Notes under the pieces: generated by a model
The model's input: the letters and a program-made list of their open reading frames with translations, nothing else
Told to the model about the DNA's origin: nothing
Databases searched by the model: none
Made by a program: the position numbers and the translations under genes
DNA from: Agelas oroides
Taxonomy: Eukaryota > Porifera > Demospongiae > Agelasida > Agelasidae
Assembly (NCBI GenBank): GCA_949130485.1
Contig: OX422184.1
Coordinates: 2,148,117 to 2,212,116 of the forward strand
Direction of reading: 5' to 3'
DNA: 64,000 bases
Shown here: one piece after another, positions 5,727 through 34,740 of the stretch
How the letters are laid out: the number at the start of each line of letters is the position of its first letter
Position numbering within the stretch: position 1 is the stretch's first letter

Positions 5727-7603
5727 CACCTACTATAACAGTTAACTTATGATGCTAAGAATTGCCCTGCACAGAGGTCTGATTTGGGGGTATAAATTTA
5801 TCCACACCTTGCAAATGACTTCGGTCTATGCTGCTTGCAGCCACTACACATACAAGGTCTTACACCAGTGTGACATCAGTTGCTAAGTTGCTCAGTAGCA
5901 AGACACATTGAATACCATACACCCCCCCCCCCCCCCCCTCTTCTCCCCCCAAAGCCATTCATCATCTTTGCTAACTCTCATATTCTAGTCTTTGATGTGA
6001 TCATTGTCAGACCTCTTTGGCCACAACATAACAACCCCAATATTCAATAGTGACAGAATATATTAGTAGCCTTGTTTGTGGGCATCCCCACTTAGTACTT
6101 TCACTTGTGTGGATACCTGGTGGAGCTGTTGGACAGATCACTGTGGTTTGTCTTGGAGCGGGGACACTACGGAGCGGGTTACTTCATGGATTTCTAATTG
6201 ATTTTGTGGCAATACAATTATCGAATATTGGCCAAGATAAACCACAAAGTAGGTTAGGGGAGATAGGAATCTCGCCCGCTTTTCGCGTGAGATTCTGGCT
6301 ACGCAAGACTAATACTGTAATAGAAAGCGGGTAATTTGGGTTCATATTTGCCATTGCCAATTGCACCTCCAGCCGCAGTGACTGCCAGTGGGTAAGTTGC
6401 TGACGCCATGTGATTCTTCTTGTCCCAGTGTACTATCGTCACATAATTGTGTCGTATTGTTGCAAAATTTGCAAATATGTAGCGATGAGCCGTCGCAGAA
6501 GTTTGTGAGAGCAAAGCAGTTCTTTTTTGCACTGCAGGCCCTTTTCTATCATATAACGATGACAAAACCGTATCTACCCGGGGATTTCACACCAGGGGCG
6601 GAGTTCCGTCCTGGTGCAGCTTTACAGCAAGTCAGGGGGGGGGGGGGGGGGGGGAGAGATACAGGATGTATTACAGGGAGATAATAATTATGGTGCGTAG
6701 CTACCAACTTAGTTGGTGGCAGTGGAGCTATCATAGATACGCAGGTATCCGATCGACCAAGCTACAAAGTCTAGAAGTGCACAGTAAGACAGCTAGTCTG
6801 GCCATTGCCAAGCCGTAGGCTTGACCTTTGAGCAGCCGGATTTTGGGTAATGGTTAGGGTTGGGCATGCAGCTACATGTTCACAGCACCCTTGGTCCATC
6901 ATGATCAAGTATGGGTGGATTGGGTCTACCTCTTTGACACTCTCAGTGCTGATCGTTTTTGATTTTAAATGAAGTAGATCAGTGCTGAGGAATGCGAGGA
7001 ATGGAGACCAGTTGAAGCCAGGCCAGTCCAGAGTTAACCCTAGACAGTCTCGCATGGCCAAGAGTGACCACTGCCTAACATGCAATTGTTTTTTTTTCTT
7101 CGTAGTCATGCTAAATCACTGGGGTTTTTTTATCATAGCTTTACCACGTGATTAGTGGCTGCATGAGACTAGACATGCACCAGATGCTTCAAACGGGTTA
7201 ATAGGTCTGCGGTCCAGCAAGGTATTCAGCTACTATAGTACATTCTTGGCTAAGTCAGCTTCCATATACTTAGTGAGAAGTTAGTGAAGTTGACTCAATC
7301 ATCAACTCCATGCACTGCCAGCACTACATTCTTGAAATTAGCATGGGAAGCTAGTCACACAACTGTACAGGAAATGCATGCATTCCGATCACAATCTGTG
7401 GGAAGATTGTAGCTAGATATGAGGCTTGTATGTTTATCTTTTGATTATCCCTACCTTGCCACACATTTGCATGCCATTAATAATGCTTTTTAGGTTGTAC
7501 CTGCATGTCAGGAAGTTGCTGGGGTTAAAACTATACATACTCCCTATAAACACAATAATGATTATTGTACATTTGGTGAGTGGTTCATGCATTTACTCTA
7601 TAG
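5727..7603. other. Intergenic stretch, no gene recognised
   Basis: It contains a poly-C run near 5921, a poly-G run near 6637 and several short open frames with no recognisable domain or matched splice sites. The last part is probably the upstream intron or 5' region of the receptor-like gene, because its start codon follows an acceptor (ctctatag). Confidence 0.4.
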
Positions 7604-7604
7604 G

Positions 7605-8018
7605 ATGGCATCCTGGTACAAAGTCTTTCTTCTGATTGTGCTCTTACACCTGCTGCACAAGGCCACAGCAGATTGTAACAGTGAAGGCAAAAGCTGTGAT
7701 CAGTGCTACCAAACACTTGCATCATTTCTTGTGAACACAAGCGACAACTTGTACCAGCTCCAGAGAGCATTCTTTCCTCCCAAAAAAACACCTTCTGTTT
7801 TTGTGGCAGTGACATATAACTACAGCAACCCTAACATCTCAAACCAAATATGGTTCTGGAGTGCTGGAATATTCTACTTCTACCAACCACTGCGAGTGTT
7901 TCAGTTCACCTCCCTGTTCTTTGGAAATCCAAACTGGCGAAGAAACAACGTAACTCTTACCCTGCCAGCAGACTGTGCAGATGCCCCTTATGAATTTATG
8001 GAGTTACTCACTCAGCTG
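7605..8018 (+). CDS. Seven-transmembrane receptor-like protein, copy 1, exon 1 (ectodomain)
   Basis: ATG at 7605 lies two bases after an acceptor (ctctatag), so a 5' non-coding exon is likely upstream. The 138 codons give a signal peptide (about residues 1-23, ending near ATA|DC) and an extracellular domain. The domain has a Cys cluster (DCNSEGKSCDQC), a fourth Cys in ADCADAP and several N-glycosylation sequons (for example NNVT). The exon ends at LLTQL|GTAAGT in phase 0. A near-identical exon occurs at 19719. The domain family is not recognised; it may be lineage-specific. Confidence 0.85.
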
Positions 8019-8105
8019 GTAAGTACATGTTTTACCACACCTGAAAGCATGGGAACTGTGTGCTCTGATATATTGACTTTCATTGCCTGTATTATAGATA
8101 CCGTA

Positions 8106-8485
8106 TAGCCGGAAATATTCAGGCGGTCTTTAATTTTAAAAATATTGGCGGAATTTAAATTTGGTGGTGGTGCCCCGCATCATATTACGTCATCATAACT
8201 GCGCACGCACACGCACACGCAGTTATCAGGGAGCATTGCCGTCCTCTCACTTGAGGTACTTGAACGATGCCGTGAGTTCGCAAATTTAAAAGAAATATAA
8301 CTGGCAGCGTGCGAGCTAGCTATATCGTGTAGAGGGGCGCCAGGCGGGGCCAAGAGCACTACTGCATGCATTACATCATTATGCAAAAATGATATTGGCG
8401 GATTTAATTTGGCAGATTTTAATTTAGCAGTTTCAACCCCGACCGCAAACCGCCAAATTTAATTCCCCGTCAAATTATCCGGCTA
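8106..8485. mobile_element. 380-bp MITE in intron 1 of receptor-like copy 1
   Basis: Ends TAGCCGGAAATATT and AATTATCCGGCTA are inverted repeats flanked by TA (8104-8105 and 8486-8487), suggesting a Tc1/mariner-type target. Paired inner segments (ggcggaatttaaatttgg and ccgccaaatttaatt) extend the hairpin. The equivalent intron of the second gene copy (20133-20427) lacks it, so insertion followed the duplication. Confidence 0.75.
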
Positions 8486-8533
8486 TAAGGTAACTGATTT
8501 TTTGTTGTTGTTTTAATTCATTGTACTCTGCAG

Positions 8534-9861
8534 CTCAAGCTTTATGCCAAGTGGCAGATTCCCAACCCTCGCATTAATGATGGTTACATTGCTGTGGCCG
8601 CCAAATTGGACACTCTTCATGATGATCTCCGCCATGACCCGTTTCTCAATGCCAACATTCCAGACTTGCTTTACGTCTTCCAGTTCTTATTCCCAGCTCT
8701 TGTTTGTCTTCTGGCTGTATTGTATGTCAGATGTTCTTATGAGTCCATAATGACGCATGTTAAGAAGCAGGTTAAACATGACAACTGGGCAACGACAACT
8801 GCCTATGCTTTCATGTGCTGCACCTTTTTAATATTTGTCGTTGCATTGGATGCAGTTGCAGTTGGTTTTCGAGACCACCATGTTATGCCTACTTCAGAAT
8901 TCTATACTAGTGCTGACGACAATCTCCTCTACCAGTATCCTCTAATGCTTGTTGTATTGGATGTCCTCACTATTTTCTACATTGTGATTGTCGCTATAAT
9001 AGTGGGGTGTATGTACAAAAAAAAAAATTTCAAACTGCAGATGACGCTAAGAAAACAGCATTGTACCTCTTTCTGATCCTATTTGGAATAGCTCCCCTGC
9101 TTTGTCTTGCGTCACATGTTCATTACATAGCTATTGCTTGGATTACAGACCCTGTTTATTCTGGTGCTATTGGAATCTACTATGGGATAGTAATCTTTAT
9201 GCAGTTTTTTCTGCTAAAGCAAGCCTACGCCAACAATTGTCGTAAGCAGATGGTTTGTCAGATGTGTTCAACTTGGCTTGCTATCAATGGCTTCCAGGTG
9301 CTGATAACAGTCTTTTTTGTTTATATTCCCATCAAACACTCCATTGAGAACACGCCCACTTTTCTGTACGCATTTATAAGTGGCAGCGGTGTACTGCTTC
9401 TTCTCTTGATTGCATACAAAGTTATCCATGATCCAAGAGGCACACTTTCGATTAGTGGCACAATACAAAATGTATTTCACAAAATAAAGGACAAAGACGT
9501 TTGTGATATGGGTAACAAAGCCTGGAAAAAGCTTGATGAAGAAGAGAAACTTGCTGAACTCATGTATCGCCATTTTGGTATTGAAGAAATGTGTCCACCA
9601 CAACCTGAAAGAGAACCTAGCCCACCACAAAGAGAAATTGCTAGTGCAGCAAGTAACTTGATACCAGAATTACGTCTATCACAAGAAGAAGAAACTGGAG
9701 AAAAGGCAGCAAGTGGTTCAAGTGCAGATGCAACCTCAAAAGTAAAAACAAAGCAGAAATCATCAGCAGCTGAAGCAAGACAAAAAATGACAGGTTCTGG
9801 AGGGAGCCCAAAACCCAAAGAATTCACTGAGACGTCACCTCTTCTCAATAAGAAGGAATAG
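8534..9861 (+). CDS. Seven-transmembrane receptor-like protein, copy 1, exon 2 (membrane core and tail), one frameshift
   Basis: Acceptor ctctgcag before 8534, phase 0. It encodes a short linker, seven hydrophobic segments and a cytoplasmic tail. The frame breaks at an 11-A run (9016-9026): upstream frame ends at 9076, downstream frame runs to TAA at 9861. One extra A would restore a continuous protein of about 580 residues that aligns throughout with copy 2, so a homopolymer error or a recent lesion is likely. The tail is about 90 residues longer than in copy 2: Pro/Glu/Ser/Lys-rich, ending TETSPLLNKKE, which contains an ExxxLL-type acidic dileucine sorting motif. Seven passes plus a signal peptide suggest a plasma-membrane receptor, but no GPCR class motif (DRY, NPxxY) is evident. 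Confidence 0.8.
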
Positions 9862-19500: not shown

Positions 19501-19718
19501 ATTAATTTAGAGTTGCCTTTGGCTCAAGGGTTTGTACCATGCATGTCAGGACATCGCTGCATGTAGCTAGCTTAGACTAAATCTCTGCTGGGGATTGTTT
19601 TTGAAGAATATACATAGATCCTATATAATATTTTTGTGAGTGCTTGCACAATAGAGATGTGAATAACATACTATGATTATTATACATCTGGTGGGTGGCC
19701 TCATACATTTACTGTAGG

Positions 19719-20132
19719 ATGGCATCCTGGTTCAAGGTCTTTCTTCTGGTTGTGCTCTTATGCCTGCTGCACAAGGCCACAGCAGATTGTAACAGTGAGA
19801 ACAAAAGCTGTGATCAGTGTTACCAAACACTTGCATCATTTCTTGTGAACACAAACGACAACTTGTACCAGCTCCAGAGAGCATTCTTTCCTCCCAAAAA
19901 AACACCTTCTGTTTTTGTGGCAGTGACATATGACTACAGCACTCCCAACATCTCACAACAAATATGGTTCTGGAGTGCTGGAATATTCTACTTCTACCAG
20001 CCACTGCGAGTGTTTCAGTTCACCTCTCTCTTCTTTGGAAATCCAAACTGGCGAAGAAACAATGTAACTCTTACCCTGCCAGCAGACTGTGCAAATGCCC
20101 CTTATGAATTTATGGAGTTACTCACTCAACTG
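19719..20132 (+). CDS. Seven-transmembrane receptor-like protein, copy 2, exon 1 (ectodomain)
   Basis: Same structure and length (138 codons) as the exon at 7605: ATG just after an acceptor (actgtag), signal peptide, cleavage near ATA|DC, Cys cluster DCNSENKSCDQC, donor CAACTG|GTAAGT. Nucleotide identity to copy 1 is very high across the exon, with only scattered differences, mostly conservative. It joins in phase 0 to 20428. Confidence 0.85.
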
Positions 20133-20427
20133 GTAAGTGCACATGTATATATACGCTAACAGAAAACATGGAACATGCATCTTAAGGTTCTAAGATTCAC
20201 TGCCTGTGCATACACCTGTTTGGGGTTGGGCTGTTTTCTCATTGCATAATTTAAACAGGTGTGCATGAAGTGTGCTTTAACTGGGTAGTAATGCTTGCAT
20301 GCACAGTACATTCAAGGACCAATAGGCTAGTGATGAAATTTTTGTTAAACCGAATACATTCAGCGGTGACCCAATATAACTATAATCAAGGCCAATTTGT
20401 TAACATTTTATTTGTTGTTCTCTGCAG

Positions 20428-21489
20428 CTTAAGCTTTATGCCATGTGGCAGAGTGCTAAGCCTCGAATTGATAATACTTATGTTGCTGTAGCTGCCAAAC
20501 TGAAAACTCTCAATGAAGAACTCTACCATGACCCATTTCTTGATGGCAACATTCCACAGTTGCTTTACTGCTTCCAGTTCTTATTCCCACCTCTGATTTG
20601 TCTCTTGGCTCTATCGTATGTCGGGTTGTCTTACAAGTCAATACAAAAGTATGTCGAGAAGCAGAGCAGACATACCAAAAATTGGGCAGCAATTTTTGCC
20701 TATGCTGTCATGTGTTGGACTTTTGTAGGGTATGTTATTGCACTGGATGCAGCTGCTGTTGCTTATCGAGGACAGCATGTTATGCCAGAATTCTTTACTG
20801 ACAATCTCCTCTATCAGTATCCTCTAATGCCACTAGCTGTGTGGGATGTGGTTGCTCTGCTCTTCCTTTTGCTATTTACTATACCAGTGATAGGATTTTT
20901 ATTATCCATTAAATGGGAACAATGTAAAGAAAAGACATTATACTTCCTCATGATCCTGCTTGGCATTGCTCCTCTGCTCTGTCTTGCATCGCACGCACAC
21001 TACATAGCTATCGCTTGGATTACCGACCCTGTCTATTCTGGTGCCATTGGAATCTATTATGGGATACTTATCTTTATGTGGTTTTTTCTGCTAAAGCAAG
21101 CCTACGCAAAAGATTGTTTTTGGAAGACAGTCGCTCAGATGAGTGTAGCTTGGCTTACTATCGTTGTCCTCCAGCTACTGACATCATTCTTTTTTGTTTA
21201 TATTCCCGTCAAACACTCCATTGAGAACACACCCACTTTTCTATATGCAGTTATAAGTGGCAGCGGTGTACTGCTTCTTCTCTTGATTGCATACAAAGTT
21301 ATCCATGATCCAAGAGGCACACTTTCGATTAGTGGCACAATACAAAATATACTTAACAAAATGGAACGCGAAAAACGTAGACTAAACAATGTAAATGACT
21401 GGCATCATCTTGATGAAGAAGAGAAAGTCACTGAACTCATGTATAAACATTACAATATTCAAGAAATTAGTCACGTGCCACAAGCTTGA
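20428..21489 (+). CDS. Seven-transmembrane receptor-like protein, copy 2, exon 2
   Basis: Acceptor ctctgcag before 20428; intact frame to TGA at 21489, giving a full protein of 491 residues. Hydrophobic segments fall at about residues 188-208, 224-251, 273-298, 308-335, 343-363, 376-398 and 408-429. With the signal peptide removed, this predicts an extracellular N-terminus and a cytoplasmic C-terminus. A conserved HYIAIAWITDPVYSGAIG lies between segments 4 and 5, and KVIHDPRGTLSISGTIQN follows segment 7. The tail is short (ends EISHVPQA) and lacks the extension and dileucine of copy 1. The family is not recognised; a receptor role is inferred from topology. Confidence 0.88.
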   Translation, partial: LKLYAMWQSAKPRIDNTYVAVAAKLKTLNEELYHDPFLDGNIPQLLYCFQFLFPPLICLLALSYVGLSYKSIQKYVEKQSRHTKNWAAIFAYAVMCWTFVGYVIALDAAAVAYRGQHVMPEFFTDNLLYQYPLMPLAVWDVVALLFLLLFTIPVIGFLLSIKWEQCKEKTLYFLMILLGIAPLLCLASHAHYIAIAWITDPVYSGAIGIYYGILIFMWFFLLKQAYAKDCFWKTVAQMSVAWLTIVVLQLLTSFFFVYIPVKHSIENTPTFLYAVISGSGVLLLLLIAYKVIHDPRGTLSISGTIQNILNKMEREKRRLNNVNDWHHLDEEEKVTELMYKHYNIQEISHVPQA

Positions 21490-22734: not shown

Positions 22735-25113
22735 TTACAGTGTGTCTGCTGTAATAAGACTATCCAATTGACCAATGATGTTCTGCATAGTCGGTCTCTC
22801 GTTCGGACTCTTCCGGGTGCATTGCTCAGTAATACGATACATATCAGGCCATTGGCTTTGCAGCAGTTGCAGCAAACCATTGAAGCTGGCATGGTCGGGA
22901 AACGTACTTGTTGTTACTTCACAAACTAATATGCCATAGCTGTATACGTCTACTGAAGGTGCCTGAGGACTGTGGGCATTGATACACATTTCAGGTGCTG
23001 CGTATACAAGTGCACCTTCACCAGGAGTTGTTGCTACCCGGACTAAATTAGCTGAACCAAAGTCAGAGAGTTTTGCTTTCCACATTTCATTTTCTATTCT
23101 TTCAAGCAGGACATTTGTACTGCTGACGTCCCTGTGGATTATTGGCTTGTGCTGGAGATGGAGGTAGTTCAGAGCTGATGCCAGCTCATGGAGTATCGGC
23201 AGTTTGTTCGCTTGTGTGATTTTGTTTTCATGATATGCTCTACGCAAGGTGATGCTTAAGAGTTCTGTGATGATCTTTGGGCTAGAATGATCGTCCAGGA
23301 TAGCTGCAATGAAAAGAACCAGATTTGGATGGCGAAGGTCTGCCATGATGCTTATCTCACGCTGGATTTGACCAACTGTGAATTGCGATAGGATCTCCTG
23401 ATGCAGACATTTGATGGCAACAGCTTTACCCCTGAATTTCCCCTCGACCACAAACCCCCATGCTCCTGTCCCCAGTACCTTGTCTCGAAACAACTCTACT
23501 TCCTTAGAACTCACAACATATTTCGAGCTTATCTGTGGCTCACAGCTCTGGGTGCTGCTCTCCAGTTCTGTGATCTTCTTTTGTGCTTCTTCAAGCTGCT
23601 GTTGTAGGTTTTCCATCTGTGGCTCACAGCTCTGGGTGCTGCTCTCCAGTTCTGTGATCTTCTTTTGTGCTTCTTCAAGCTGTCGTTGTAGGTTTTCCAT
23701 TTGCGATGAGTGGTTACGTTCCATCTCAGATGTCATGTTGATTTGGGTGAGGAAAGAGTTCATCAACTCCTGCCACTTGGTTTCAACTGTTTCAAACTTT
23801 TCTTTGGCTTCTTTCTCACTTTCCTGGGAGTTTTTCAGCTGCATCCTTAGCTCCTCTATGTCTGCACTTGTGGGTACTGCCTGAGACACACCCACTTGCA
23901 CCGATTTGCTAAGTTTCTCACTTGACTCCTCTATGTCTGCACTTGTGGATATTGCCTGTGACACATCTCCATCTCTTTGCACCATTTTGTTAAGTTTATC
24001 ACTCGACTCCTCTATGTCTACACTTGTGGATAGTGCCTGTGACACATCTTCATCTCCTTGCACCGTTTTGTTAAGTTTATCACTCGACTCCTCTATGTCT
24101 ACACTTGTGGATATTGCGTGTGACACATCTTCATCTCTTTGCACCGTTTTGTTAAGTTTATCACTCGACTCCTCTATGTCTGCACTTGTGGATATTTTTG
24201 CCTGTGACACATCTTCATCTCCTTGCACCGTTTTGTTAAGTTTGTCACTCGACTCCTCTATGTCTGTACTTGTTTCCAGACTTGTATTCGGTGACACGTC
24301 TTCTCGCACCATTTTGCTGAGATTCTCGTTCAACTGCTGGCCATCTTTGTGAGATTTTTCCAATCCAGTTTTTGTCTCCGGGCTGTTGGAATACTGACCT
24401 AACATTATTTGTTGGTGGTTTTCTTTCAGCACTTTAGCTTCAGCCTTTGCTTGTGACAGTCTTGCTGTTGCTCTAGCCAGCTCTGTTGTGGCAGCATTGA
24501 GATTTTGTCGAAGATCTTCATTCTCATCGTGCAGATGTTGGGCTCTCTCTTTCACTCGACTAAGCTCAGACATGGTCGAATAGAGGGACTGTTGAAACCC
24601 CTCCTTCTCAGCATTCAGTTGTAGGATTCCATTCTTGGCCTGGCTGAGTTCAGTTTCTGTCGAGCGGAGAGTAAGTTGAAGTGCTTCTTTTTCAGCTTTC
24701 TCTTCTTCGAGTTCTTCTCTCACTATTACCAGCCTTGACGCAATCTCTTCAACTTTCTGTTCAGTATGTTCTTTGTATCTTTTTTCATCCCCCAGCTGTT
24801 GTTGCAAGCTAGCCACTTCTTCACTATTGGATGGCGGATGAGGCTTTGACCTTTCTTCTTCTAGCTGCGTGTAAGCATCTTGTAGTCTTTGCTGGAGATC
24901 CATTATTTCCTTTTGGCTCCTCACAAGCTCAATTTGCATTACAACTGGGTTATGTGATATAGCACTGATTGGAGAAGAGGGCTGTCGGTTAGCTTGCTGC
25001 TGATGATGACCATAACTTTGTGGAAGAGTGCGATGTGTCGTGGTGTACACTGGACATTGTATGGAAAATTGAGCACACAATGCTTGCACTAAAGCAGTCA
25101 AGTCCGACTTGCC
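22735..25113 (-). CDS. UEV-kinase fusion: UEV C-terminal helix, linker, coiled coil and TKL-like kinase (last exon)
   Basis: The exon opens after tttatag with GKSDLTALVQALCAQF, which continues the UEV domain of the previous exon in phase 0 and aligns with the TSG101 helix after HEW. Next come a His/Gln/Pro-rich linker, about 180 residues of coiled coil, five copies of a ~27-residue DIEESSDKLNK repeat, a second coiled coil with an exact LEEAQKKITELESSTQS duplication, and a kinase domain (about 22750-23510). Kinase motifs are complete: GTGAWGFV loop, VAIK lysine, HRDVSSTN catalytic loop, DFG, APE, and a C-lobe Arg in NERPTM. Active catalysis is therefore plausible. Motif style (GTGAWGFVVEG, GALVYAAPE) suits TKL-type Ser/Thr kinases. 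The stop is at 22735-22737. The whole protein would exceed 900 residues. Confidence 0.88.
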   Translation of the reverse strand, partial: GKSDLTALVQALCAQFSIQCPVYTTTHRTLPQSYGHHQQQANRQPSSPISAISHNPVVMQIELVRSQKEIMDLQQRLQDAYTQLEEERSKPHPPSNSEEVASLQQQLGDEKRYKEHTEQKVEEIASRLVIVREELEEEKAEKEALQLTLRSTETELSQAKNGILQLNAEKEGFQQSLYSTMSELSRVKERAQHLHDENEDLRQNLNAATTELARATARLSQAKAEAKVLKENHQQIMLGQYSNSPETKTGLEKSHKDGQQLNENLSKMVREDVSPNTSLETSTDIEESSDKLNKTVQGDEDVSQAKISTSADIEESSDKLNKTVQRDEDVSHAISTSVDIEESSDKLNKTVQGDEDVSQALSTSVDIEESSDKLNKMVQRDGDVSQAISTSADIEESSEKLSKSVQVGVSQAVPTSADIEELRMQLKNSQESEKEAKEKFETVETKWQELMNSFLTQINMTSEMERNHSSQMENLQRQLEEAQKKITELESSTQSCEPQMENLQQQLEEAQKKITELESSTQSCEPQISSKYVVSSKEVELFRDKVLGTGAWGFVVEGKFRGKAVAIKCLHQEILSQFTVGQIQREISIMADLRHPNLVLFIAAILDDHSSPKIITELLSITLRRAYHENKITQANKLPILHELASALNYLHLQHKPIIHRDVSSTNVLLERIENEMWKAKLSDFGSANLVRVATTPGEGALVYAAPEMCINAHSPQAPSVDVYSYGILVCEVTTSTFPDHASFNGLLQLLQSQWPDMYRITEQCTRKSPNERPTMQNIIGQLDSLITADTL
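23890..24290 (-). repeat. Coding minisatellite in the UEV-kinase linker (5 units of about 81 bp)
   Basis: Five in-frame units encode variants of DIEESSDKLNKTVQGDEDVS plus a short ISTSA-type spacer. Unit lengths are multiples of three, so copy-number change would keep the frame. The units are acidic and Ser/Thr-rich. Confidence 0.85.
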
Positions 25114-25169
25114 CTATAAACAAGCAGAACAGATGCAAAATAGAGACATTTTTATTGTTACAAGGTAAA

Positions 25170-25300
25170 AATAGAGGGAAGTGGAAAGCTGGCAGTTGCA
25201 AACCCATGGCTGAGTCGCCAGTGCTCTACCTTGGGGCTAAAACCACCAAACAAACCCCAGATAATTTATCCAACTGATTCCTGGTGACTGCCAGCTTTTT
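25170..25300 (-). repeat. tRNA-derived SINE-like sequence in a UEV-kinase intron
   Basis: On the minus strand it reads ttagccccaaggtagagcac...ggcgactc...ccatgggtttgcaactgcc, resembling tRNA A-box and B-box blocks. The cloverleaf is not complete, so it is more likely a SINE head than a tRNA gene. The related ctggcagctgctggctttt motif occurs near 28440. Confidence 0.4.
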
Positions 25301-25723
25301 CACTTTTGCCTCATAACATCAAACTGTAAATTCAACTGAGGCAGGATGTACAAAGCCTTTATAGATGCAAACTGTGAAAGTGTAGAAACTCGTATATGCA
25401 GCATTCAAATAATAGGCCACAGTTAAATGCTTGAACATACTGTTTCGTAATGCACTGGATTTTAGCAGAATATTGTATTACTGAGCCTATATATTGCCCT
25501 AACATCCAGAACACCAACGTGTATCTTTGCCTGGATGTTTATGATTACCAGTTTAATTGTATGTGCACACACAATAATCACACTCATGCAATGCTGCATA
25601 CAAGTAATTTACATGTGCATAATAAACAATATGTACCTAATAGCAAGGCGCGCTTGAAAACCAGATTCTACACTCAGTCTAAATTTGCTGCATACAATTT
25701 GCTTGGCTACATTCACAGCTAAC

Positions 25724-25899
25724 CTCTCTCCACTCTCTCAAGTATTCCAGCTCCACTTTCCCACTTTCGTTGATGTATCTGACTGGGGCAATGGCCATAT
25801 TAGACGTGGGGTTGACAAACACAATCGGTCTCGAGCTTTCTGGTGTTCCTGGGTGGCCATGCTGGATCCAAATACGTACTGGGATGGTGCACATTTGTC
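25724..25899 (-). CDS. UEV-kinase fusion: central UEV exon
   Basis: Acceptor cttacag and donor GAGAGAG|GTTAGC; 176 bases that enter in phase 1 and leave in phase 0. It encodes GQMCTIPVRIWIQHG, then SSRPIVFVNPTSNMAIA and ESGKVELEYLREWRE. This matches the core of the TSG101/Vps23 UEV domain (NIPICLWL, CFVKPTSSM, GKIYLPYLHEW in human). The E2 catalytic Cys position (Tyr110 in human TSG101) is Glu, so it is a ubiquitin-E2 variant, not an active E2. The PTAP-pocket Met (Met95) is kept; Tyr68 is Cys. Confidence 0.88.
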
Positions 25900-26589
25900 C
25901 TGTAAGTACATACGTATAGTGTATAGCAGGGTAGCCTATACTGTTGTGCAACATACCTATTGTAACTAAGTTATTTAGTAAACCACAAAACAACTGTTTC
26001 CTTAAACTGAAGGTTGTAGCTAATACAGATGCTTTAGCGAGGGGAAATTTGCTGAGGTTCTTAAACAACGTTTACAGTGCACAAAACTTGATACAACTGC
26101 AGCCTTTCAGCTCCAGAGCCTAATCTTCAGGCAGTACAATGACTTTTTCCCTTAGGTCCTAACTAACATAGCTATATTGTATACTGAAGTGACAAAAAGC
26201 TGGGTCAGTCCCAGAAACTAGGATAGAGGCACAGAGTGTGGCTGGTGAAACCGGTTTAGGATACAACTATGGGTTGGATCACTATGTCTGTTCTGACTAA
26301 GGCCGTACGTAGATAACGTCCTAGCAACTCAAAATAGTATGTGTATAACTATATACCTAAAAGTGTTTTATAGCCTCGCTCCCAGGCCTCCCCCATTTTT
26401 GTTCTTCTGTCAGTTGCGTTCAGTATAATACACAGAAGCAGAAGAGTGGCAAAAAGGGACGAAAATGCCACTCTTCCGCTTCTGTGTATTATACTGAACG
26501 CAAACCAAACAACAAAAAACAGGGGAGGCCTGGGAATGAGGCTAAGTGTTTTACAGCTCTTCAACATTGAAACAAGTATACTTGCGTAC
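25900..26589 (-). other. UEV-kinase intron with a MITE
   Basis: No coding exon seen. It contains the TAGCCTCG-family element at 26371-26544. Confidence 0.5.
26371..26544. mobile_element. 174-bp TAGCCTCG-family MITE with perfect 9-bp duplication
   Basis: Ends TAGCCTCGCTCCCAGGCC and GGCCTGGGAATGAGGCTA; AGTGTTTTA repeats at 26362-26370 and 26545-26553. The inner arms, around gaagagtggca and tgccactcttc, pair almost perfectly. Confidence 0.85.
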
Positions 26590-26655
26590 CATTTGTGGTG
26601 GTTGGAATTGTGCCACTGAGTTGCATCATGTCGACCTTTTGGCCATTAGGGTAGA
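26590..26655 (-). CDS. UEV-kinase fusion: UEV exon with the GTIP strand
   Basis: Acceptor acacacag-type before 26655 and donor AATG|GTACGC; 66 bases, phase 1 in and phase 1 out. It encodes YPNGQKVDMMQLSGTIPTTTN, matching the human TSG101 stretch that runs from VFNDG to LTGTIPVPYRG. Human Tyr63 aligns with Thr here. The split codons on both sides close correctly. Confidence 0.85.
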
Positions 26656-26882
26656 CTGTGTATGAAAGAAAGGGAGTATGGCTCTCTATGTGTGGATACA
26701 TCTGCATAAATACTGGGTGGTGCTACAGTATATCTACTTACGTAGTTGCATGCTTTATTTCTGCTTCACAACAATATCATTTAATGACTGCCTTCAATGT
26801 AGAATGTCCCAGTTAGTATTATTGACATTGTAACAAAATTACATGGTTTGCAACCCAGTTATCATCGTATATCAGCTCCTAC

Positions 26883-26967
26883 CATATTCTCTGACAGATG
26901 GCTTCAGGTCTTTGAACGTCTCAATAACAGCTGTGATGTGCTTTGCAGCCGGACCTGCATTCTTATA
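26883..26967 (-). CDS. UEV-kinase fusion: first recognised UEV exon
   Basis: Acceptor gtttag before 26967 and donor TATG|GTAGGA; 85 bases ending in phase 1. It encodes YKNAGPAAKHITAVIETFKD then LKPSVREY, matching the N-terminal UEV helix of TSG101 (VITLYKDLKPVLDSY). The codon across the junction gives V, as in the TSG101 SYVF. The start codon and the first ~14 residues must lie on an upstream exon that I could not identify. Confidence 0.82.
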
Positions 26968-28100
26968 CTAAACACAAAAAACAGTGGCATGGTAAACTTT
27001 GTTAGTCTTGTATTCAAACTTTCAAGCTTTTGTCACTTGCAGTGCTAAATTATGAGAAGTGCTGCATGCAAGTGGGAAAGCTGGTTCATTGAAGACCTGG
27101 GTATGAGGCTAAATTTTTGTGACCATGTACAGTATATCTGCAGACGTTTCTATAGCAACATAGACAGCTGCACAAAGAGACACTATACCTTTGAGATGCT
27201 ACTACTATACATTTGGATGAGGCAAGCCACCTAGCTGAGGCGAGCCACCTGAGTCTTTCTTGGCAACATGCATGCAAAAGGTTTGCTGTCTCTTTGCGTG
27301 AACATGTGTACCGATTGACTCAATGGTGGCTGTATGTGTAAATATAGGCTGCTGACTATGCCAAGTATATTTTAAAGGTACGCTTGCTTATGACTGAAGC
27401 TCCGGCTGTGTTGTGAGATTCAAATGCAGTCGTGTTATTTCTGGTAACGAATTACTTGTCTCCAAAAACCCTAAGTGTTCTACGTACCTATAATGGCCTT
27501 CTGCTGAGTACCTGTCTATTAGCTATCATATGTTGTGGTTGTGTACATCAGCTAGTAGCTACTTCTTGCAGCTTGTAGTAATTACCTTGTTTGTTTGTTT
27601 CAGTGTGGCTAGAGTTTTGTATATAGCTATTATTCATATACGCTCCCAAAAGATCGTAGTTTGATAACGCTTACTTTCAAGTTTTTCAAAGTGTGTTTCA
27701 ATTGCCTTTCTGATGGATGCGGAGTGGCCATTGCAATGGAACTGTTAAATCAACAGCCTGTGTGTAAAGATCAACAAGGGAAATGACTTCACACAACAGT
27801 AATTGATGTTGAAACACGTGTTCACTACATCTAAGTGCCCACACCATGCTGGTACACAGAGGAATGCATCGGGTAATTGGCCATAATTGTTCTTGTTCTT
27901 ATATAATAGAGAGCACAGGTATATAATTATCCCTATATAGTGCTACTTCCAGTCTTCATTATGGGATGTATTGCATGTGACTTGGAAATGTGAAAGTTAT
28001 GAGGCTGTGTACATATATAATGCAATGTTTCTGCAGTACCTGACATACTCCCAAACCACAGTAGGACAGGCTATAGCATCACCATACAAGTTACTTTCAT

Positions 28101-31050: not shown

Positions 31051-33878
31051 TCAGTAATCCAAATGTTCGGTAATGTTACATGTACCATCGGCTAACAGTG
31101 GATCACGTTGTGTCTGTAAAATGGAGTCTAGGCAATGAAACTTCAGTGTTGCTTCACTAGTGAAATTGTCCAAGCTTCCGTGAACTGTGCTTGGCTGTGC
31201 AAATGAATAGGTTGTTGCATTTACAACACACTGTCTCAGAGATTCGCTTGTTTGAATAGCTATGCGATCACTGTCTGTGAGTGCTGCCTGTTTGTACTGC
31301 TGTGGTCCGTTTGAGTAGTGAACACTACCTGTGGCAGAAACATTATTGCAAGGTCTCTGAAGGTTCACATGGAGATGAGTCTGGTTTGGTGGTTGCACGG
31401 GCTTACAATCGTTTTGTGTGTCTGAAAGAAACTCTCGAATGCAGTCAATTTCCATTGACTCCTGTTCGCTAGGTGTTGGCGGTGAGTCATTGCTATCTAA
31501 GATCTGAGCTAATTCCTCAGACAGGTCTGAATGTGCAAGACTGCCACAATTGAGTTCCTTTTCACTCTCAACCCCTTCAATCATGCCCAGTACACCGGCA
31601 TCCATGGAAAGAGAAGATGAAGAGAGTAGAGTGTCTGGATTGAAATGAAAATCAGAGAATATGTCGTCCTGAAGTAGCAGATCTGAAAATTCTAGTGAAT
31701 TGCCTTGTGCAGTGGTATCATTGGGAGAGTTTGCACAGTGGTCCAATTGTAAGGACATGGGAGATTTAGACATGGAGCCAAGATCTGTTGACTCGCTGTC
31801 ACAGAATCCTTCCATGGTGGTGTTTCTTTCACACATAACTTTGACTCTGTACTCAGAGCTTGGAGAAGGTGCTTCGACCTTAGGAGTGACGGAAGTTGCT
31901 ATTGCGTTCACTTCAGAGCTGGAATACATCATTTCTTCTTGTCCCTTCTTGAGTTTGCTCAAGATGTGCTCACGAAATGCCATCAGGTTAGCTCTGTTCA
32001 TTGATCGAGGCCACTGGGAAGACTTACTTTTCTTGTGAGAAGGTTTCATCGCAACTGGGTTACCTGCCTTGTGAAGACGGGCTCTCTGGCCCTTGAGAAT
32101 TTGTTTTGCACCTAAAGATTCAGAGTCTTGGATAAGATACCTGTGCTGAGCAGTGTCTTTAGGAGGATGACTCACTCCTACCGGTCGACCATTTGCTAGA
32201 GTGTTTTGAAGACCATGGTTAGGTGAAACTGGAACTGAGGTGGTTGGAGGAAGACAACCGTTTGACTGAGTGGGAAGGATCCGTGCAAACACCGTTCTCT
32301 CTGTGGGTTTCTTTCCCTGTACAGGTGCAGCCTGGGAACATGACCTGAGATTTAACTCCGTAGGAGCAGGAGGATTGGAAGAGAAAAGGGAAAGTGTGGC
32401 ATCTGCCTTGAGGGATAAAAGCTTCTCAATTTGGTCAGCTCCTAAGTTGGCTATCTGTGATTTCAGCTGCTCTACTTCTGTAGGTGGTAGCTTACTAAGC
32501 TCGGATTTGATCCCTGGCAGGCTGTTTACATTTACACTTGTTGCCCCATTGTTCTGAAACGGTTTTGTGAGTGTAGAGAGAGCTGTGGTGATTGCAACCA
32601 AGAAGATAGCAGGGTTGCTACTGGAAGCCAGAAGCTTGCTCAACATTGGCATCTGTGAGCACAGAGTCTGAAGTAGCTGCGTGCTGAGTCCGGGAATATT
32701 TGGAAGGCTTTGAAGACTAGGTGAAAGAGTTGCTTGCATTTGTGTGGGGCCTGACGCACTTGTTGCAGCAGTCTCTGTCTTGATACTGGAGACGATAGTG
32801 GTAGGTTCACCTTCAGTGTTACTGGTATGGGGTTCCATAGACTCAGAGCCAGCGACGGAGCAACTGACTTGATCGGCTTCAGATTTAACCACAATGTTTG
32901 GTGACTTGGGCATGTTCAGACTAGCCGGTTCATGTTCGTTTTTCATGTTAGGCAGAATTTGCGTCTCCAGCAGACAGCCTCTATTCACCACGGATCCTGG
33001 GCTTCCACTTGACATGAAATTCTCGTAGTGTATCAGGCCATCAGTGGTTCTTTGGCAGGCAAGTGGATTTGATCTAAGGTCTGTAGGTTTAGCATCATCC
33101 GTGAAGGTGCTTTCTGGTGTAAGCAGGTCTGTAAACGGGGAACTGATTCCATCCATAGTGGCGGTGGTGGTTGGGTTTTCAGAAAAGTATGTTCCTGTGC
33201 TTAGTAAACTAGGACTACAATAGTCCTGTGGTTGAGTGGAGTAAGAAAGAGTTTGAGAAGGGTGGGAGAGAGGAAGAGGAGCAAAAATGGAAGTTTGCAA
33301 GTAGGAAGTGTCTTGGTTGGGACCGAAAGCAGTGAACTGCGGAGGAGAAAAAATGCTGGCATCATTGATGGGGCTTGTTATGGAGTCGTGGAGGGGCGGG
33401 TGAATCATATGAGGAGAGGAAGGCGGAAACGAGGGATTTGTTGGTGAATAGTTGCAGCGGAAAAAAGAAGTGGGGTCGACAGGTGTGAGTGCTGGCGATA
33501 GAGAACGGCTTTGAAAGGTACCCGGTGGAAGGTGAATAGGAGCCGTGCTTGTCACTGGGCTGACATCATATGTGGAATAGCCACTATCTGACTCGTACCC
33601 TGTAGCGGAAAACAGCTTTGCTTCAATTTCACTGAGATCAACGGCAGAACGCAAAAACTGCTCAACTTGCTCTCCAGACCAATCAGCATTTTCTGAGAGA
33701 ACAGCTTCAATGTCTTCCACTGTGAGACCAGGCAGGTCGACATCTTTGATAATCTCCTCATTCACAAAGTTGAGAATCTCCGTGGGAATGGTGTGGGAGG
33801 CTGGGAGGGCATCCTGTGGGTGAAGTGGATGGCCCAGGTGAGGGCTAATACCATCTGGTACACATCGTCTTTGTGCAC
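31051..33878 (-). CDS. Large Ser/Pro/Thr-rich regulator-like protein (single long exon)
   Basis: An acceptor (acattacag) places the exon start at 33878, entering in phase 1; the ATG of the open frame at 33927 is intronic read-through and the true start lies upstream. About 942 residues to TGA at 31051. The N-terminal part has IPTEILNFVNEEIIKDVDLP and a helical TVEDIEAVLSENADWSGEQV segment. Then come long low-complexity Ser/Pro/Thr/Gln stretches, a Leu-rich helical centre, a basic conserved-looking block (SQWPRSMNRANLMAFREHIL then SKLKK), and an acidic C-terminal part (DLSEELAQILDSNDSPPTPS). This pattern suits a nuclear co-regulator or transcription factor with acidic activation segments (inference). 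No bZIP, homeodomain or zinc finger is seen. Family not recognised. Confidence 0.75.
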
Positions 33879-34740
33879 CTGTAATGTGTATGTATAGTGG
33901 AGAGCGAGAAAGTGAGTGAGTTAACAAATCTGTTTAAGCGGTAATTAAACCAATGTACGTAAGGATAATAGTTATTTTGGTATAATTTCTTTTCATATCT
34001 GAAATGAGGGTGAGTGTCAACACATACACTGAAATGTGCCACTTGCTTTGGAATAACAATACCCAGCTTAAGTGAGTGACATTGTTTTTGGCCATAAGCA
34101 TACATATTCAGTCTTAATTTCGACCAATCAGCATCTAGCTCCCAGACATGAAGTGTAATTCAGTTAACAACCCATCAGTGGGTAATTACTACAGTTTTAG
34201 TGAGCTGTAGGTTAATTAAATTAGAGAAATAACTATGGAGGGAATTCACAGACTTGATTATCATCCATCATCCCCCCTCATAATTCCACCAAACCATGTG
34301 CAGAAACCTGTGTGCTAGCTAATCAGTTCCAATTTGGAAGTAATAAAAACTGCGAGGGAGGATTATAGTGGTAAATTGTTACTGAATCCTCTTCGTATTA
34401 CTCAATAGCCTGAAACTGGGTAAATACCTCTGAGTAATGCATCTTAAGTATATGTTTTCGCATATACTACGAAGCGACAAGGCTGCAGACTAGCATGTAC
34501 AAATAAATAGATCTAACATACTTCATAGCTATTCCCCCTGTAACTCATTATAAATGACTAAAGAGCTCCTAGACCCTCCATGAGTCTCAATAATAAGGGA
34601 GGAGAAACTCGTTACCATGGTGATAGCTACTATAAAGTACTAGATAGTCACTATGCGACCAACTGTCCCAAGTTCTCCTCTCTTTATATAAACTAGTGTG
34701 CTGCTTCAGAATATCCTAACTAGGGTTACTATTAGTGTTA

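Follow-up and report, generated by a model that had tools for sequence, protein, structure and literature searches.

The DNA analyzed here is a 64,000-nucleotide (nt) stretch (the window) of contig C2 in a sponge genome of 141 contigs (259 Mb), G000. On its minus strand lies a gene, read from genomic DNA as a spliced model, that joins a UEV domain of the TSG101 type to a coiled coil and a TKL-like kinase. An earlier reading, made from the letters alone (the sequence-only reading), had placed four exons here, and all four are present (exons 2 to 5 below), separated by three GT..AG introns with concordant phases of 1, 1 and 0. Spliced together they give 901 codons and a stop with no internal stop, so the reading frame of that model stands, while a start codon is absent from it. 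As part of the explanation that we favor, the locus probably represents one gene of five exons encoding a protein of ~920 residues, predicted to consist of a UEV head, a Pro/Gln-rich linker, a long coiled coil with variable repeats and a C-terminal TKL-like kinase. Its features are these:

27675..27731, minus strand: probable exon 1, 19 codons from ATG, MATPHPSERQLKHTLKNLK, a TSG101-like N-terminal helix with phase-0 donor gtaagc; absent from the sequence-only reading
26883..26967, minus strand: exon 2, start of the UEV core, YKNAGPAAKHITAVIETFKDLKPSVREY; its acceptor position and its donor phase match those of the TSG101 gene of this genome (own TSG101)
26590..26655, minus strand: exon 3, UEV, VYPNGQKVDMMQLSGTIPTTTN; phases as in own TSG101
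25724..25899, minus strand: exon 4, UEV core, GQMCTIPVRIWIQ...LEYLREWRE; UEV match of 53.1 bits, phases as in own TSG101
22735..25113, minus strand: exon 5, a single exon holding the UEV C-terminal helix, linker, coiled coils, repeats, kinase and stop
25042..25113, minus strand: UEV C-terminal helix and tail in exon 5, GKSDLTALVQALCAQFSIQCPVYT; aligns with human TSG101, 19/22 identical in database protein P0002 and 14/22 in P0009
24943..25041, minus strand: Pro/Gln-rich linker
24394..24942, minus strand: first coiled-coil region, judged by eye; Tropomyosin match under the Pfam cut-off, 94/178 identical in P0009
23846..24359, minus strand: 81-nt (27-residue) in-frame repeats, families D1 and D2
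23524..23763, minus strand: second coiled-coil region, by eye; holds an 84-nt in-frame duplication at 23531-23698 (D3)
22738..23523, minus strand: TKL-like kinase domain, from Pfam, structure matches and motif alignment
First bases of the kinase motifs, minus strand: GTGAWG 23472, VAIK lysine 23412, alpha-C Glu 23358, HRDVSSTN 23136, DFG 23064, APE 22998
26371..26544, no strand assigned: inverted repeat in the intron between exons 3 and 4, outside the protein (I1 and I2, with 60-nt and 30-nt arms that are 83% and 87% complementary); perhaps a small transposon remnant

In the joined protein, Pfam places a UEV domain (PF05743, E 9.6e-33) at residues 8-131, covering profile positions 2-121 of 121, and a kinase domain (PF00069, E 1.2e-33; PF07714 also matched) at residues 653-889. 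With in-frame splicing and both matches near 1e-33, there is good support for the proposed gene of UEV, coiled coil and TKL-like kinase. The 81-nt and 84-nt tandem repeats that lie between and around the coiled coils (window 23531-24359) stay in frame, and, by eye, their copy number in P0002 differs from that in the window gene.

The assignment of the head to the TSG101 type of UEV is confirmed by Pfam, by phmmer matches to TSG101 UEV structures (up to 6.3e-24) and by alignment with human and own TSG101. A search of the genome gave four UEV loci. One of these, L005 on contig C11, is the canonical TSG101, and it holds the sole steadiness-box match found in the genome (C11:8503535, 43.3 bits). 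The introns between exons 2 and 5 are identical in position and phase (1, 1, 0) to those of L005, as is the start of exon 2 (DNA read by eye), and the UEV is identical to own TSG101 at 64/146 positions and to human TSG101 at 46/121, compared with 54/121 between own and human TSG101. These shared intron positions and phases, together with the UEV identity, indicate that TSG101 was the source of the head and that the copying took place at the level of genomic DNA, introns included. At the position of human TSG101 Tyr110, which we take to be that of the catalytic cysteine in an active ubiquitin-conjugating enzyme (E2), the window gene has Glu; it thus lacks the cysteine of an active ubiquitin E2. 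No steadiness box (PF09454) was found by Pfam in the joined protein. The sequence-only reading had also named a separate steadiness-box exon spliced to the UEV exons as evidence against the fusion; in an exon-by-exon search, which short exons could escape, the genome's only match lies at own TSG101 on C11 and not near the gene.

Two further TSG101-like UEV genes are located on contig C1, at 2350000-2359500 (L006) and 2317000-2326900 (L007). The genome search found no steadiness box at either, and L007 holds an open reading frame (ORF) that by eye resembles reverse transcriptase.

TSG101 starts with a short exon encoding a helix. A search of 4.1 kb upstream of the four exons for short exons of 8-21 codons in total that open with an ATG and end at a phase-0 donor returned 22 candidates. 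The one at 27731-27675 (MATPHPSERQLKHTLKNLK, donor AAA/GTAAGC) has the best similarity of the 22 to the candidate first exon of own TSG101 (MAQLSIKDVKNKLKS, itself the product of a similar search), and its donor score is joint-best. Of 1000 random sequences matched in dinucleotide composition, 138 contained a candidate that reached the similarity score and 6 one that reached both scores, and we therefore regard this exon, with its start codon and TSG101-like first helix, as likely rather than certain. With it, 57 nt are added and the gene has four GT..AG introns; the likeness of the first, phase-0 intron to that of L005 rests on the candidate first exons of both genes.

The UEV exons might instead be the fossil remains of a decaying duplicate, with the kinase alone being used. 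Changed ligand-site residues (see below) and the detection of the UEV core in one genome only would fit such decay. However, at 64/146 identity to their counterparts in own TSG101 the exons contain no stop or frameshift and their splice sites are GT..AG, the UEV still scores 117.7 bits in Pfam against 124.4 for own TSG101, and in P0009 the UEV tail is more conserved than the adjoining linker. By a crude estimate, random codons would remain stop-free over 157 codons with a chance of ~0.0005. We consider decay highly improbable.

The kinase had been described as carrying all catalytic motifs, and each of those tested is intact in the alignment, from the glycine loop, VAIK lysine and alpha-C Glu through HRD and Asn to DFG and APE. 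Its TKL-like character is likewise borne out, as the nearest solved relatives (best 60 of 2201 structure matches) are mostly TKL kinases, including CTR1 (1.3e-25), TNNI3K (4e-22), MLK, Roco4, RAF and LRRK2; an EGFR chain ranks sixth and a few other tyrosine kinases also occur among these 60. We aligned 150 kinases of the family to which the gene belongs (that of the window, 29 from its genome and 120 from the database). Of these 150, 149 retain the VAIK lysine, 150 the alpha-C Glu, 149 the HRD Asp, 148 the Asn and 150 the DFG Asp, and the catalytic loop reads HRD[VI]S[SA]xN family-wide. Many Ser/Thr kinases have Lys at the catalytic-loop position two after the HRD Asp. In this family that position is Ser in 147/150, the window gene included, a replacement that bears on whether the enzyme is active. 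Judged from its conserved residues, the kinase is probably active.

Whether the UEV exons and the kinase exon belong to one gene is a separate matter. Exon 5 opens with the last UEV helix in the right phase and runs on through linker, coiled coils and kinase as one uninterrupted frame. The same junction recurs in two database proteins, each a single ORF: in P0002 the UEV tail listed above is followed by a kinase identical at 259/262 positions, and in P0009 the tail is followed by 30 residues of which 7 are identical and a kinase identical at 215/261. A regular expression for the UEV tail matched P0001, P0002 and P0009 among 121 proteins. In a quick kinase-domain tree of 60 rows hand-picked from the 150 (no bootstrap), the window gene, P0002, P0003, P0008, P0009 and P0010 form one clade of six with a Shimodaira-Hasegawa-like approximate likelihood-ratio test (SH-aLRT) value of 95; the sequences of the sister clade (10 tree rows) begin downstream of the UEV-tail position and are silent either way. 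It would make little sense for a UEV tail to persist across such divergence on its own, with no UEV core upstream. Alternatively, two neighboring genes could have been wrongly joined, one of them TSG101-like and made up of the UEV exons, the other starting on its own and containing the kinase exon. The joining of the exons was read from genomic DNA, the genome contains two further TSG101-like copies (L006 and L007), and many kinase ORFs have no UEV, all of which would suit this alternative. Because one exon encodes both the last UEV helix and the kinase, and because the junction recurs in P0002 and P0009, it is very unlikely that two genes have been misread as one; that the genome's one steadiness-box match lies elsewhere also argues against it.

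Besides the catalytic-loop Ser, several observations count against our reading of the gene as a UEV-kinase fusion. P0002, P0009 and P0010 are known from a kinase ORF that begins at or inside the UEV tail, without the UEV core exons; P0010 has only the end of the tail, 7/15 identical; and P0003 and P0008 say nothing about the junction, since their ORFs begin past the tail. That the UEV and kinase exons are transcribed as a single mRNA is something we infer from the genomic sequence. The sequence-only reading had proposed looking for database proteins with UEV and kinase in one chain, but the protein database searches gave no spliced UEV-kinase, with one query matching P0002 only, and a chimeric query with the UEV of own TSG101 in front returned 185 candidates, 0 of them at E 0.001.

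Related searches were also negative. A precomputed UEV domain was found in none of the best 120 of 426 kinase relatives, and when genome_contigs and viral_contigs were scanned for P0009 relatives, none of the pattern matches, 74 and 8 respectively, encoded one. Two kinase relatives among the 120 matches listed are named, as Amphimedon queenslandica and Geodia barretti, which points to a sponge.

The own-genome kinase search produced 145 matches, and by hand count 55 besides the window align at 40-54% identity over almost the whole domain. Many of these family members are clustered in the genome, and for 25 of the 55 the match contains one or two stops. In the copies read on contig C7 the stop is the protein's own end, with the match running beyond it. 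At most of the 29 loci fetched besides that of the window gene, a coiled coil (by eye) comes just before the kinase within one open frame, while at L015 and L021 none was seen within the open frame read. The window gene shares the family's C-terminal kinase, its coiled coil before the kinase in the same exon and its sequence. The gene is no one-off fusion but belongs to a kinase family whose heads differ and which has 55 other members in this genome. The coiled coil had been likened to that of TSG101, with the kinase standing in for the steadiness box. Most kinase-family members read have a coiled coil directly before the kinase, and because the family shares it and the genome's one steadiness-box match is at own TSG101, the coiled coil (judged by eye and compared with the family) is probably that of the kinase family and not that of TSG101.

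Other heads precede family kinases elsewhere in the genome. At C2:3336531-3410679 (L012-L014, L016, L018, L020 and L042), seven Neuralized exons alternate with seven family kinases on the same strand, each Neuralized exon lying 2.1-4.5 kb upstream of its kinase. Six of these kinases are intact and one is broken, two further kinase fragments have no Neuralized exon of their own, and one pair was read directly. The genome has 19 Neuralized matches, and the alternation of seven of them with kinases in this array suggests Neuralized-coiled coil-kinase genes with the same head-plus-cassette build. At C23:904604-912608 (L011, L022 and L041), CAP-Gly matches are located upstream of two neighboring family kinases: one at 904604 (29.4 bits) before the kinase at 907149, and one in the ORF of L041 (33.1 bits) before the kinase at 911859, the latter absent from the listing of the genome CAP-Gly search. 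Single database ORFs also combine a family kinase with four ubiquitins (P0118), SPRY (P0073), Neuralized (P0060), AZUL (P0121) or, in P0076 and P0080, which are close to each other, HSP70, all over the Pfam cut-off; for the HSP70, AZUL and ubiquitin heads these database sequences are the sole source. P0095 has a CAP-Gly after the kinase and then a stretch that by eye resembles the CYLD protease, and P0057 has repeats that resemble A20 zinc fingers by eye only, as Pfam did not name them so.

We also asked what the UEV of the window gene might bind. The portion of PMC7650771 consulted gives Asp34, Thr58, Tyr63, Arg64, Tyr68, Asn69, Ile70, Thr92, Met95, Val141, Phe142 and Ser143 as peptide contacts of human TSG101. 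At these positions the window gene has, in order, Asp, Thr, Thr, Asn, Cys, Thr, Ile, Thr, Met, Val, Tyr and Thr, keeping 6/12 with mild changes at Phe142 and Ser143, while own TSG101 keeps 9/12, including Arg64, Tyr68, Asn69 and Ser143, and differs at Asp34, Tyr63 and Phe142. In addition, four residues are inserted ahead of the PIVFV strand in the UEV of the window gene, and LEYL replaces LPYL. For ubiquitin, we take the TSG101 contacts to be Val43, Asn45, Asp46 and Phe88; like own TSG101, the window gene retains Val43 and Phe88 but neither Asn45 nor Asp46. Because Tyr63, Arg64, Tyr68 and Asn69 have become Thr, Asn, Cys and Thr, recognition of PTAP cargo by this UEV is doubtful. With its PTAP pocket so remodeled, the cargo recognition in the style of ESCRT-I (endosomal sorting complex required for transport I) that the sequence-only reading had expected finds no support.

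These residues bear on the possibility of an ESCRT-directed kinase, in which the UEV would recognize ubiquitin or P(S/T)AP-like motifs carried by ESCRT-0 and cargo and the kinase would phosphorylate the endosomal sorting machinery. The TSG101 descent of the UEV and the six kept contacts (Asp34, Thr58, Ile70, Thr92, Met95 and Val141) are consistent with such a role. The other contacts are not: Arg64, Tyr68 and Asn69, common to human and own TSG101, are changed along with Tyr63, and the milder changes and the insert affect the same domain. No steadiness box was found, and therefore ESCRT-I assembly by that route would not be expected. We regard an ESCRT-directed role as unlikely.

A different use of the remodeled site would be in innate sensing, by analogy with those plant receptors that carry integrated host domains: the TSG101 copy might act as a bait or sensor for pathogens that hijack ESCRT-I, with the kinase raising the alarm. 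A large family with clustered copies and several different heads, some of them from the ubiquitin system, would accord with this, as would the altered ligand site itself. The kinase, on the other hand, is highly conserved in the UEV clade (215/261 in P0009), unlike what an arms race in that domain would produce, and we think the decoy role quite improbable. A broader proposal, which we hold as a tentative possibility, is that sponges assembled a large set of intracellular kinases by fitting one coiled coil-TKL cassette with a variety of heads, including several ubiquitin-system proteins (TSG101 UEV, Neuralized, polyubiquitin, UBE3A-type AZUL, CYLD-like CAP-Gly and A20-like zinc fingers), each head sensing the state of ubiquitin or proteostasis or serving as a pathogen decoy, with a shared phosphorylation output. 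Such a family would be an animal counterpart of receptors with integrated host domains.

The explanation that we prefer as a whole, and consider probable, is a fused-head gene in a multi-head family whose kinases are activated by clustering. A duplicated TSG101 gene would have contributed its 5' part together with the introns, and this would have been joined to the coiled coil-kinase exon of an expanded family; the join point would fall in the exon that also encodes the last UEV helix. The UEV head, no standard PTAP reader, would bind ubiquitin or another ligand on a client complex, and the coiled coil would make dimers or oligomers, thus gathering several chains. Clustering on the client would let the kinases activate each other and then phosphorylate the client or a common downstream target. 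We infer these steps (ligand, oligomerization, trans-activation and substrate) because clustered kinases generally act in this way.

Elsewhere in the window, a gene for a multi-pass membrane-like protein is present in two copies that are alike by eye (7494-9861 and 19677-21489), three of whose ORFs were scanned with no Pfam match. A 960-residue open frame without a Pfam match lies upstream of the gene on the same strand (31051-33933), and Rfam at gathering thresholds found nothing in the window.

The gene can be viewed as a domain fusion within a modular kinase family, and the family itself is perhaps the more interesting of the two. A large sponge kinase family with several ubiquitin-system heads would be a candidate sensor system in early animals, and the window gene would couple ubiquitin or peptide recognition with phosphorylation in a single chain. 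The sequence-only reading knew of UEVLD and of no UEV-kinase, and no UEV-kinase appears among the titles and abstract openings listed by searches of the open literature, in agreement with that claim of novelty. As far as is known, this is the second enzyme, after the dehydrogenase of UEVLD, to be joined to a TSG101-type UEV in an animal, and the first kinase.

Compared with TSG101/Vps23 of ESCRT-I, the window gene has the same type of UEV, the intron positions and phases of own TSG101 and a Pro-rich linker followed by a coiled coil; it differs in that no steadiness box was found, residues of the PTAP site are changed, the coiled coil is family-like and a kinase forms the C terminus. Its kinase shares fold, motifs and sequence kinship with the TKL kinases CTR1, TNNI3K, MLK, Roco4, RAF and LRRK2 (from the best 60 of 2201 matches), whereas the HRD[VI]S[SA]xN loop, the expansion, the coiled coil and the differing heads set the family of the window gene apart. 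Fusions of G protein-coupled receptors (GPCRs) with kinases, GPCR-TKL/K in choanoflagellates and GPCR-TK (tyrosine kinase) in choanoflagellates and sponges, are described in the part of PMC12716839 consulted. Likened by architecture only, these also join a kinase domain to receptor or sensor modules in these lineages, but there the head is a seven-transmembrane receptor. UEVLD, according to the part of PMC2926785 consulted, arose in the vertebrate branch when TSG101 was duplicated and its UEV exons were joined to a lactate/malate dehydrogenase gene, with identical intron phases. Thus, both UEVLD, so described, and the sponge gene appear to share a kind of origin in which the UEV exons of a duplicated TSG101 were joined to an enzyme gene, the partner in the sponge being a kinase, with no dehydrogenase domain in the Pfam scan, and the partner in the vertebrate branch a dehydrogenase.

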